Below are positions 37,358-40,286 of a DNA stretch of 45,607 nucleotides, piece by piece (the stretch's first letter is position 1; each line of letters begins with the position of its first letter). The stretch spans positions 1-45,607 of the IMG/VR virus record IMGVR_UViG_3300042922_000339, one strand, 5' to 3'. Source of the stretch: a virus. The position numbers and the translations under genes are program-made. Below the pieces are notes generated by a model. It did no database searches and was not told the DNA's origin. It saw nothing but the letters and a program-made list of their open reading frames with translations.

Positions 37358-37452
37358 CCACCTGCAAGTGCGGGGCTCGCTTCGACCCCACCCCATCCGG
37401 CCGCAACACCCACAAACTCATCCACGGCCACGCACCAGTGGAGGACAAATGA
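37354..37452 (+). CDS. Zinc-knuckle micro-protein
   Basis: 32 residues from GTG 37354. TCKCGARF, then THKLIHGHAP: two Cys and three His, a plausible one-zinc knuckle. Exactly spans the gap between neighbours with overlaps on both sides. Confidence 0.45.
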   Translation: MTTCKCGARFDPTPSGRNTHKLIHGHAPVEDK

Positions 37453-38168
37453 GGATACTCGACCTCTTCGCCGGCTCAGGAGGCGCCGGACGCGGCTACG
37501 AGCTCGCAGGATTCGACGTCTACTCCGTCGACCTCGACCACCAAGCCCTCGTCCACAACCCCCACGCCACCACAACCCGTGACGCACTCGCGGTCGTTCG
37601 TGAACTTCTCCGCGGGGAGCGCGTCACGTTCTGGCGCGCCGGTGTCAAGCAAGTTCACCGCGTCCTCGACGACTTCGACGCCATCCACGCGTCCCCACCC
37701 TGCCAACGCTGGTCCACCGCCACAGCCAACGCCGACCGGCACCCAGACCTCATCACCCCCCTGCGCCCTCTCCTCGAGCGGGCGGCCCTGCCCTACGTGA
37801 TCGAGAACGTCCCAAAGGCGCCCCTCACAACACCCACCATGCTCTGCGGGTCCATGTTCGGACTCAAGGTCCGCCGGCACCGGCACTTCGAAACCAGCTT
37901 CGACCTCGACCCGCCCAAGCCCTGCGACCACAAGTCGCAAGGTGCGCCAGTCGGCGTGTACGGCGACCACTACGACTCCCGCGAGTTCCTACGCCCCGAC
38001 GGCACACGCCGCGGAGCAAAGGCCCGATCCCTCGCCGAGGGGCAAGAGGCGATGGGTATCGACTGGATGCCGTGGCGACACCTTAAGGAGGCGATCCCGC
38101 CTGCCTTCACGGCTCACATCGGGTGCGCACTAGCGATGCACATCAACGGGCAGGCGGTGGCGGCGTGA
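37449..38168 (+). CDS. C5-cytosine methyltransferase-like protein
   Basis: 239 residues, ATG 37449. AdoMet motif DLFAGSGGAGRGYELAG, catalytic C85 in SPPCQRWS, ENV at 119-121, and HLKEAIPPAFTAHIGCALAM at the end. Shorter than classic Dcm enzymes (small target-recognition region), as usual in actinophages. Second methylase within 2 kb, so the phage may modify both adenine and cytosine. Confidence 0.85.
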   Translation: MRILDLFAGSGGAGRGYELAGFDVYSVDLDHQALVHNPHATTTRDALAVVRELLRGERVTFWRAGVKQVHRVLDDFDAIHASPPCQRWSTATANADRHPDLITPLRPLLERAALPYVIENVPKAPLTTPTMLCGSMFGLKVRRHRHFETSFDLDPPKPCDHKSQGAPVGVYGDHYDSREFLRPDGTRRGAKARSLAEGQEAMGIDWMPWRHLKEAIPPAFTAHIGCALAMHINGQAVAA

Positions 38169-38362
38169 CTCTCCTCTCCGACGCCCGCCAACGCCTCACC
38201 AACACGGCGTGCGCACTGTTCTTCGGCACCAACAACACCGACACCCGCGACCAGTACTACACCGCGCTCGACGCACTCACCGCAGCACTACACGAGGAAG
38301 GAGGAACATGGCCCGCATCCGCACCATCAAGCCCGACTATTGGACCGACGGCAAGGTCGTGA
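38165..38362 (+). CDS. Unknown small protein
   Basis: 65 residues from GTG 38165 (GTGA overlap). LSDARQRLTNTACALFFGTN, then DQYYTALDALTAALHEEG. Helical. Its last 55 bases overlap the initiator gene in another frame, so its true end or reality is less certain. Confidence 0.5.
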   Translation: MTLLSDARQRLTNTACALFFGTNNTDTRDQYYTALDALTAALHEEGGTWPASAPSSPTIGPTARS

Positions 38363-39024
38363 GCTGGTCCCCGTTCGCCCGACTCCTGTTCATCGGCATG
38401 TGGAACTTCACCATGTGCGACCACGGGCACGTGGCCGACGACCCGATGAAACTCAAGCTCCAGATCCTCCCCATGGACGATGTCGACATTGACGCCCTGC
38501 TCGCGGAGATCATGGACTCGGGGAGGGTCAAGCGGGTGACTGACCCTGAGGGCCGCACCTACCTGCACATCACCCGGTTCGGTGACCACCAGAAGATCGA
38601 CCCCAGGTGGAAGACCCGCTGCCCCGCATGCGCCACACCCGAACTCGCCGAAACTCACCCGAGTTTGGGTGAGCCACGGCGAGACTCACCGGAACTCCCC
38701 GAAACTCCCCCTAGGAAGGGAAGGGAAGGGAAAAAGACTACGTCCACCGCTTCGCAGGTGGACGGGTTCGATGACTTCTGGGCCGCCTACCCCCGCAAGG
38801 ACGGCAAGGGCAAGGCACTCCCCGCATACGAGCGAGCACTCAAGAGAGCCGAACCCGCCACCATCCTCGCGGGCGCACTCAAGTACGCCGCCACCGTCAA
38901 GAGCACCGAGCGCCAGTACATCAAGCTCCCCGAAGGATGGCTCAACGCCGACCGGTGGGCCGACGAATCCCTCGCCGAAGCCAACAAGGCTGAGACATCG
39001 TTCTGGACGAGAGGGCCGGTGTGA
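38308..39024 (+). CDS. Replication initiator / replisome organiser
   Basis: 238 residues, ATG 38308 with GGAGGA upstream. N-terminal winged-helix type RIRTIKPDYWTDGKVVSWSP, RLLFIGMWNF and DHGHVADDP, common to phage initiators; a low-complexity middle; C-terminal DFWAAYPRKDGKGKALPAYE domain that likely contacts the helicase. The middle of the gene carries iteron-like repeats and a purine tract, so it probably contains the origin, like lambda O. Followed directly by DnaB. Confidence 0.85.
   Translation: MARIRTIKPDYWTDGKVVSWSPFARLLFIGMWNFTMCDHGHVADDPMKLKLQILPMDDVDIDALLAEIMDSGRVKRVTDPEGRTYLHITRFGDHQKIDPRWKTRCPACATPELAETHPSLGEPRRDSPELPETPPRKGREGKKTTSTASQVDGFDDFWAAYPRKDGKGKALPAYERALKRAEPATILAGALKYAATVKSTERQYIKLPEGWLNADRWADESLAEANKAETSFWTRGPV
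38640..38737 (+). other. Candidate replication origin: iterons plus purine tract
   Basis: Near-identical 10-bp units G-A/G-A/G-ACTC-N-CC: CGAACTCGCC (38640-38649), GAAACTCACC (38650-38659), then GAGACTCACC, GGAACTCCCC and GAAACTCCCC in perfect tandem (38681-38710). Between them CTCACCC/GGGTGAG forms an inverted copy (38654-38673). A 25-base all-purine strand follows (38713-38737). The period of 10 does not match codons, so DNA-level selection is likely. Confidence 0.72.
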
Positions 39025-40286
39025 TGGACGACCAGACGAACCCGGAGCTCGCACTCCTCGGCATCGCGATGCACAAGCCCGAAATCACCGCGGACGTGGA
39101 CGTGACCGAGGCAGACTTTGGAATCCCCAAGGCCGGCGCCGTCTGGGGCATCATCATGAACCTGTTCGGGCGCGGCGAACCCGGCGACCCGATCACCGTC
39201 ATGGCGAACCTCGGGCAGTCTCCCGTGCGCGGCATCGAAGCAACCTGGCTAGCCGAGGTCTACGGCGCCGCACCCCCCACAATCCGGGCCGAGCACTACG
39301 CCCGCCTCGTCCTCGACGAAGCAACCTACCGGCGCCTCGACTCCACACGTATGCGCATCGGGCAGGCCATCCAGGAGCGTGTCCCCGCGGCTGAGGCTGT
39401 GGAGATGGCGCGCGGCTGGGTTGACGCATCCTCGAGGACTGTCGCGGAGACGCACTTCATCGCGGACTCCCTCGAGGAGACGATCAACCTGTTGCAGTCC
39501 CCGAAGCCGGACTACACGCCGACACCGTGGCAGGACATAAACGAGCGGATCGGCGGTCTGCGTCCGGGCGCGCTGTACGTCATCGGTGCCCGGCCCGGTT
39601 CAGGCAAGACGCTCATGGGGTTGCAGCTCGCCGTGCACATGGCCAGGACGGGTCACGTCGCGTTCTCGTCGCTCGAGATGACGAAGCACGAACTGAACCA
39701 GCGTGTCCTAGCGCAGGTGACGGGGGTGCCGTTGTCCCGGTTCCTGAACCATGACCTGACCCCGCAGGACTGGGACACGATCGCGAAGCACGCGCAGGAG
39801 GTCGCGGACCTGCACTTGTCCGTGGACGACTATTCCGCGGCCCGGGTCACGCACGTCCGGTCACACGCTAGGACGGTCGCCAGGAAGGGGCCGTTGAAGG
39901 CAATCATCGTGGACTACATCCAGCTCATGGATGACCCGCCGGGTGATAAGCGTCCGAGGCATCAGATCGTGGGTGAATACTCTCGTTCCTTGAAGAAGAT
40001 GGCGAAGGAGATGGGGGTTCCCGTGGTTGCGTTGGCACAGTTGAATCGTGAGGTTGCTGGGCGCGCGTCCGGCAAGCCACTGCTCTCCGACCTTCGCGAG
40101 TCGGGCAATCTGGAACAGGATGCTGACGTTGTCCTGCTCCTTCACCGTGACGTTGATGAGGACCCGACGGTGCTGCATGTCGGGATTCCGAAGAACCGTC
40201 AGGGCATGCAGGACGCTAAGCAGCTCACTTGGGACGCCGCACATGCGCGTCTCCTCGACAAGCGATGGACACCAGGAGGAATGTGA
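39021..40286 (+). CDS. dnaB: DnaB-type replicative helicase
   Basis: 421 residues from GTG 39021 (ATG 39024 possible). N-terminal collar domain (PELALLGIAMHKPEITADVD), then RecA-type core with Walker A GARPGSGKT at 189-197, AFSSLEMTKHELNQR, IIVDYIQLMDD, and LNREVAGRASGKPLLSDLRE with QDADVVLLLHRD. Hexameric helicase loaded by the initiator upstream. Codon use changes from C-ending in the first third to T/G-ending after about 39480, suggesting a mosaic gene. Confidence 0.95.
   Translation: MMDDQTNPELALLGIAMHKPEITADVDVTEADFGIPKAGAVWGIIMNLFGRGEPGDPITVMANLGQSPVRGIEATWLAEVYGAAPPTIRAEHYARLVLDEATYRRLDSTRMRIGQAIQERVPAAEAVEMARGWVDASSRTVAETHFIADSLEETINLLQSPKPDYTPTPWQDINERIGGLRPGALYVIGARPGSGKTLMGLQLAVHMARTGHVAFSSLEMTKHELNQRVLAQVTGVPLSRFLNHDLTPQDWDTIAKHAQEVADLHLSVDDYSAARVTHVRSHARTVARKGPLKAIIVDYIQLMDDPPGDKRPRHQIVGEYSRSLKKMAKEMGVPVVALAQLNREVAGRASGKPLLSDLRESGNLEQDADVVLLLHRDVDEDPTVLHVGIPKNRQGMQDAKQLTWDAAHARLLDKRWTPGGM

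Follow-up and report, generated by a model that had tools for sequence, protein, structure and literature searches.

A probable replication origin of 10-bp repeats and a purine tract within the initiator gene of a phage

The DNA that encodes the linker of a phage replication initiator very probably acts as the replication origin of the phage, which would then be of the in-gene theta type found in lambda, P22 and the plasmid pSK41. The gene lies in a 45,607-bp virus record, the whole of which was analysed and is referred to here as the window. The original prediction had described five near-copies of a 10-bp unit, three of them in tandem, and one inverted copy, followed by a run of purines, and all these elements were confirmed exactly at the positions given for them (Table 1). 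Together, array and purine tract span 38641-38737, inside the initiator gene, and both were shown statistically to be under selection as DNA. Lambda, P22 and RepA_N plasmids are established cases of an origin located within the initiator gene. The open-access literature, from which subscription papers are mostly absent, yielded no description of 10- or 11-bp arrays with a GGGAA tract in initiators of the PHROG 1408 type.

The protein belongs to the phage replication initiation proteins of PHROG 1408 (profile match 3.1e-25, N-terminal domain) and PHROG 270 (4.5e-24, most of the protein), and among named relatives the nearest, with 53% identity, are the 'RepA-like replication initiators' of the Arthrobacter phages Hum25 and Pitbull. 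A Pfam search up to E=1 returned nothing but a sub-threshold RHS repeat; it detected neither the RepA_N domain (PF06970) nor the lambda O family (PF04492). An AlphaFold2 model (mean pLDDT 81.8) consists of two confident domains, the second of the FWxxYPRK type, and between them a disordered linker whose residues 116-129 and 137-144 have a pLDDT below 50. Structure searches with this model gave no Foldseek match at E<=0.001 and none at Z>=8. The likeness of the N-terminal domain is to winged helices in general, with RepA_N initiators, DnaD and ORC2 among the matches tied at Z 6-7, a tie that favours none of them; the RepA_N-type winged helices 4pql (Z 7.1), 5kbj (Z 6.5) and 4pt7 (Z 6.3) stand among many ties. 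The single match of a profile-based sequence search of the PDB, at E 0.85, is meaningless. The N-terminal domain is presumed to bind the iterons, and the C-terminal domain is presumed to be the helicase-recruiting part. The product of the next gene, a DnaB-type helicase, shares 31% identity with P22 gp12 (E 2e-29). Just 5′ of the initiator lies a gene for a C5-cytosine DNA methyltransferase (37446-38168; PF00145; PHROG 363), and an annotated DNA methyltransferase is likewise found upstream of the initiator in Hum25 and Pitbull. The GC skew along the window was uninformative, without a clean switch at the site of the array and tract.

Table 1. Features of the initiator locus in the window
Feature	Position	Strand	Remarks
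Initiator gene, 238 aa	38308..39024	+	PHROG 1408 / 270 'replication initiation protein'
N-terminal domain, winged-helix-like in model	38308..38640	+	weak structural matches
Iteron-like unit 1, GAACTCGCCG	38641..38650	+	
Iteron-like unit 2, AAACTCACCC	38651..38660	+	first half of conserved dyad
Inverted unit, GAGTTTGGGT	38661..38670	-	
Iteron-like unit 3, AGACTCACCG	38682..38691	+	
Iteron-like unit 4, GAACTCCCCG	38692..38701	+	
Iteron-like unit 5, AAACTCCCCC	38702..38711	+	
Pure purine tract, 25 nt, GGGAA-type	38713..38737	+	least stable windows overlap
C-terminal domain, FWAAYPRK type	38760..39021	+	exchanged for other domains in L004, L125
DnaB-type replicative helicase	39021..40286	+	PF03796 9.1e-69; overlaps initiator stop

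The motif RACTC starts at 38642, 38652, 38683, 38693 and 38703, the last three starts being spaced exactly 10 bp, and the inverted copy GAGTTT (38661-38666) completes the dyad AAACTC-N4-GAGTTT (38651-38666). The 80-bp stretch with the strongest lag-10 signal of the whole window starts at 38634, and the same stretch ranks first in the whole window over all lags from 7 to 24 that are not multiples of 3. Tandem Repeats Finder reported eight rows for the window, of which 38680-38710 was the only one with a period of 10. Because the array is coding, the null model had to keep the encoded peptide, and 20,000 synonymous recodings were used. Compared with these, the array has 36 lag-10 matches against 24.6 +/- 3.5 (p=0.00065) and five copies of ACTC against 1.36 (p=0.00055); when the null takes the maximum over lags 7-24, the periodicity has p=0.012.

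The analysis was extended to related initiators, drawn from the best 80 of 142 and the best 80 of 580 matches, and the fractions that follow are not population estimates. Among the matches listed, lag 10 was the sole top of lags 6-15 in 19 of 22 close relatives and reached p<=0.01 in 14 of the 22; lag 10 was not the sole top in L143, where it was tied, L084, where lag 11 led, and L006, whose broken frame led to scoring of the wrong stretch. The larger set of 71 initiators was obtained from 73 with distinct first 100 amino acids by removing L056 (spurious) and L175 (truncated), skipping L005, L006 and L178 (shorter than 200 aa) and adding L084, L143 and L148. Among the matches listed, 28 of these 71 linkers were periodic at p<=0.01, with lags of 10 (11 linkers), 11 (9), 22 (5) and 20 (3) and no others, and the remaining 43 had no significant period at this threshold. 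The same test at p<=0.01 found none of the 71 N-terminal domains and none of 53 downstream genes periodic. Thinning left 20 periodic linkers (p<=0.01) among 58 representatives of the matches listed. In this thinned set, 41 of 58 linkers had their best lag at 10, 11, 20 or 22, as did 18 of 58 N-terminal domains and 8 of the 43 downstream genes. The controls that pass at p<=0.05 are four N-terminal domains and four downstream genes, with scattered lags. Printing the relatives in rows of one period revealed arrays that lead directly into the tract. L172 was rejected as a negative control, its tract lying past the amino acid 210 limit of the tests, behind an inserted HNH domain; it remains counted as a miss here and in the single-gene purine counts.

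The original prediction had placed the constraint on the DNA, whereas selection could in principle act on the peptide alone, the repeats and purines being by-products of a low-complexity, charged linker. The disorder of the linker in the model agrees with such an explanation; the synonymous nulls for the period and its lags, which are not multiples of 3, speak against it. The reading frames also bear on this point. Across 12 loci with intact genes or with array plus tract, 64 copies of ACTC, located some 9, 19, 29, 39, 50, 60, 70 and 79 nt upstream of the tract, are distributed over the three codon phases as 26, 20 and 18. The window reads the tract in frame 0 and all other 11 loci in frame 2, and AACTCCCCCTAGGAAGGGAAGGGA is the same in the window and in L132/L139, yet it is read in different frames. 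A search of the relatives for the peptide segment conserved in the absence of the repeats revealed the opposite: a 10- or 11-bp period and a purine-only tract persist while the peptide drifts, as expected from a constraint on DNA. Selection on the peptide alone is largely refuted already for the array and, for the locus as a whole, highly improbable.

The purine tract is the only purine run of at least 14 nt in the window, whose pyrimidine runs all stay below 13 nt. All 25 nucleotides of the tract are purines, and its GC content is 48%. Stability within the gene is lowest in the 25-bp window that starts at 38716 and the 40-bp window that starts at 38701, both of which overlap the tract. The tract is presumed to be the element at which the DNA opens or the helicase enters. 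Tested against a synonymous null maximised in the same way, the purine segment of the window gave p=0.004, and a cruder 22-nt statistic gave p=0.028; a further value, p=0.0015, is optimistic because the tract had been chosen by its purine content. In a set of 72 genes, the 71 above plus L209, single-gene tests against synonymous recoding reached p<=0.01 in three and p<=0.05 in six, and a cruder version reached p<=0.01 in 14 of 71. This result, together with the fact that GKGRE-type peptides are encoded by purine codons anyway, would fit selection on the peptide. Because the single-gene tests were mostly non-significant, the claim for the tract rests on a pooled codon test, in which the tracts were chosen by peptide alone (rich in G, E, K and R; present in 49 of 59 representatives) and the genes are related, not independent. 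Arginine was encoded by AGR in 73 of 82 tract codons, compared with 117 of 807 elsewhere in these genes, and glycine by GGR in 141 of 151, compared with 273 of 641. In segments picked in a similar way from the N- and C-terminal domains, the respective counts were 4 of 38 and 6 of 58 for AGR and 21 of 44 and 17 of 42 for GGR. This codon choice argues for selection on the DNA of the tract. The mean GC content of the tract stays between 0.47 and 0.52 whatever the GC content of the gene, and a strong tract occurs in only one of eight genes below 50% GC. A G-quadruplex was considered as a conserved feature and rejected: a motif with four G3 runs is present in only 19 of 53 strong tracts (four G2 runs: 50 of 53).

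A purine-rich stretch within a gene might also guide ribosomes, in the manner of a Shine-Dalgarno sequence, to an internal start from which the C-terminal domain would be translated separately, a function that could coexist with that of an origin. An in-frame ATG indeed follows AGGAAGGGAAGGG directly in L002, L007, L082, L083 and L138-L141, but the window has no ATG at the end of its tract, the ATG is out of frame in L004 and L137, L125 has none, and a start codon is missing at many tracts of the wider set. This explanation is very unlikely. Of 19 relatives examined, 14 have the dyad in the form AAACTC-N4-GAGT, and its distance from the tract is 49-50 or 59-60 nt, or 98 nt in L125. The tract measures 25 nt in the window and 35 nt in L002, and the distance from dyad to tract is 60 and 59 nt, respectively; judged from the two sequences, these differences are compensating indels. 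Two further loci have a broken initiator frame within the array: L006 (near 2300-2420) has exactly one 10-bp unit fewer than L002, and L005 (near 2300-2445) has one extra base. Both breaks may be either real variants or sequencing errors.

The periodicity test was also applied to known origins. In lambda O, used as a positive control, it detected DNA-level repeats as it did in the window (lag 23, p=0.002), in agreement with the annotated iterons. The outcome for P22 gene 18 was mixed, with lag 23 leading in 5 of 7 windows and the whole annotated origin peaking at lag 7. A further 56 genes share the C-terminal domain of the window initiator and nearly all have other N-terminal domains (L013 in fact has the same one; six genes were set aside and identical linkers merged). 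Eighteen linkers of this set were significant, with lags of 22, 23 and 11 (five each) and 20, 17 and 10 (one each), and four of its controls passed at p<=0.05 and none at p<=0.01. The pooled codon test was unconvincing in this set (AGR 20 of 55, GGR 17 of 30).

The original prediction had called the origin lambda-like, a description that holds for the layout and probably for the mechanism but not for descent. As in lambda, where the origin lies in the middle of gene O, central in-gene iterons under DNA-level constraint precede an asymmetric region with its purines on the coding strand; the order had been predicted, and both order and strand are the same as in lambda O. In contrast, lambda has four inverted-repeat iterons of 18-19 bp spaced 20-24 bp, and the window has direct 10-bp units with one dyad. 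The opening region of lambda is about 22% GC and 73% purine, whereas the tract of the window is entirely purine, of the GGGAA type and lacks absolute A+T richness, although the least stable windows overlap it. A P gene serves lambda, and in the window a phage-encoded DnaB adjoins the initiator. BLASTP detected no similarity to lambda O, and by its sequence the window initiator is not a member of the O family. A 19-bp iteron length and the opening by O of a strand-asymmetric A+T-rich region are described for lambda in part of PMC5043065, and lambdoid O proteins in part of PMC7466680.

In P22 the initiator gene 18, with its internal origin, directly precedes gene 12 for a DnaB-type helicase, and the window contains an initiator-helicase module of this type as far as gene order goes. 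Gp18 is lambda-O-like, without detectable similarity to the N-terminal domain of the window initiator or likeness to the protein as a whole, and windows of the P22 origin reach at most about 73% purine. In the iteron plasmids P1, F, RK2 and R6K the repeats lie beside the rep gene, not inside it, and the opening region, unlike the presumed one of the window, is A+T-rich. What they have in common with the window are helix-phased direct repeats beside the opening region (PMC5043065, in part). The layout of pSK41 is closer, with Rep boxes central in rep that encode the linker between a DNA-binding N-terminal domain and a C-terminal domain; pSK41 differs in being an antisense-controlled plasmid with no GGGAA tract in the part of the source consulted (PMC5703833). 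The same part describes RepA_N plasmids as having a central in-gene origin and a dispensable linker, and a chimera, pPR9, in which N-terminal domain and origin were exchanged together (PMC5703833). In the case of a different RepA, that of a mycobacteriophage, an origin within or adjoining the gene was suspected by its authors, with no repeats reported in the portion available (PMC7157519).

Helical phasing would equally suit a regulator, and the array might be an operator or another regulatory site, for example one through which the initiator-helicase operon regulates itself or at which a repressor binds. Its position in the middle of a gene instead of at a promoter, the succession of array and tract in many relatives and the presence of an origin at that very place in the best-studied members of the gene class, lambda O and P22 gene 18, make an operator unlikely. 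Short direct repeats are also found in some mycobacteriophage parS loci (PMC7157519, in part), but an array located within an initiator gene, accompanied by the tract and linked to DnaB, has a negligible probability of being a partition or other segregation site.

If the linker is an origin, the winged-helix N-terminal domain would bind the 10-bp units, which lie one helical turn apart, and the AAACTC-N4-GAGTTT dyad may serve as the nucleation site. The resulting complex, helically phased and confined to one DNA face, may strain or wrap the DNA, as lambda O and plasmid iterons suggest by analogy. The purine tract beside it, where the gene is least stable, would then open, and a single strand, consisting wholly of purines or wholly of pyrimidines, would be captured. 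The C-terminal domain might then recruit the DnaB encoded by the next gene, as suggested by the gene order and by the exchange of this domain in relatives. The N-terminal domain, array and tract are found on at least three kinds of C-terminal domain, being kept in L004 and L125 with different ones. In L125, the only such relative, this domain is lambda-O-like (BLASTP E 7e-9; PHROG 391 'O-like', 1.1e-14), and in L004 it is primosomal or weakly DnaT-like (PHROG 3992, 1.4e-15; Pfam DnaT E 0.016, below the cut-off). The next gene in L125 (2924-3256) and L004 (2762-3331) matches only PHROGs of unknown function, not DnaB, and these two genes are candidate helicase loaders.

Taken jointly, these features tentatively suggest a widespread class of origins, a reading which is possible but doubtful as a whole. 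In such origins, the opener would be coding-strand polypurine of the GGGAA type with a near-constant 47-52% GC, and not A+T richness; the pentamer tract, (GGGAA)n being open in all three frames and encoding the same GKGRE repeat in each, would buffer the frame, its indels compensating the gain or loss of 10-bp iterons with the initiator left intact; and N-terminal domain, iterons and tract would move as one specificity cassette onto various helicase-recruiting C-terminal domains. If the linker is indeed the origin, one stretch of DNA would be protein linker, iterons and opening element at once, and the tract would be the junction where helicase-recruiting domains are swapped. A helical-turn period measured against a synonymous null would also be a simple computational pointer to unmapped origins in many phages, cultured Arthrobacter and Gordonia phages included. 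Some relatives have an insertion in this region: an HNH-type domain is inserted in frame between the N-terminal domain and the purine tract in L172/L220 (2001-3278), and likewise in L221 (from 2001) and L222 (from 1695), as identified by PHROG matches for L172 and read from the sequence only for L221 and L222. The origin-bearing linker of these relatives appears to harbour an endonuclease.
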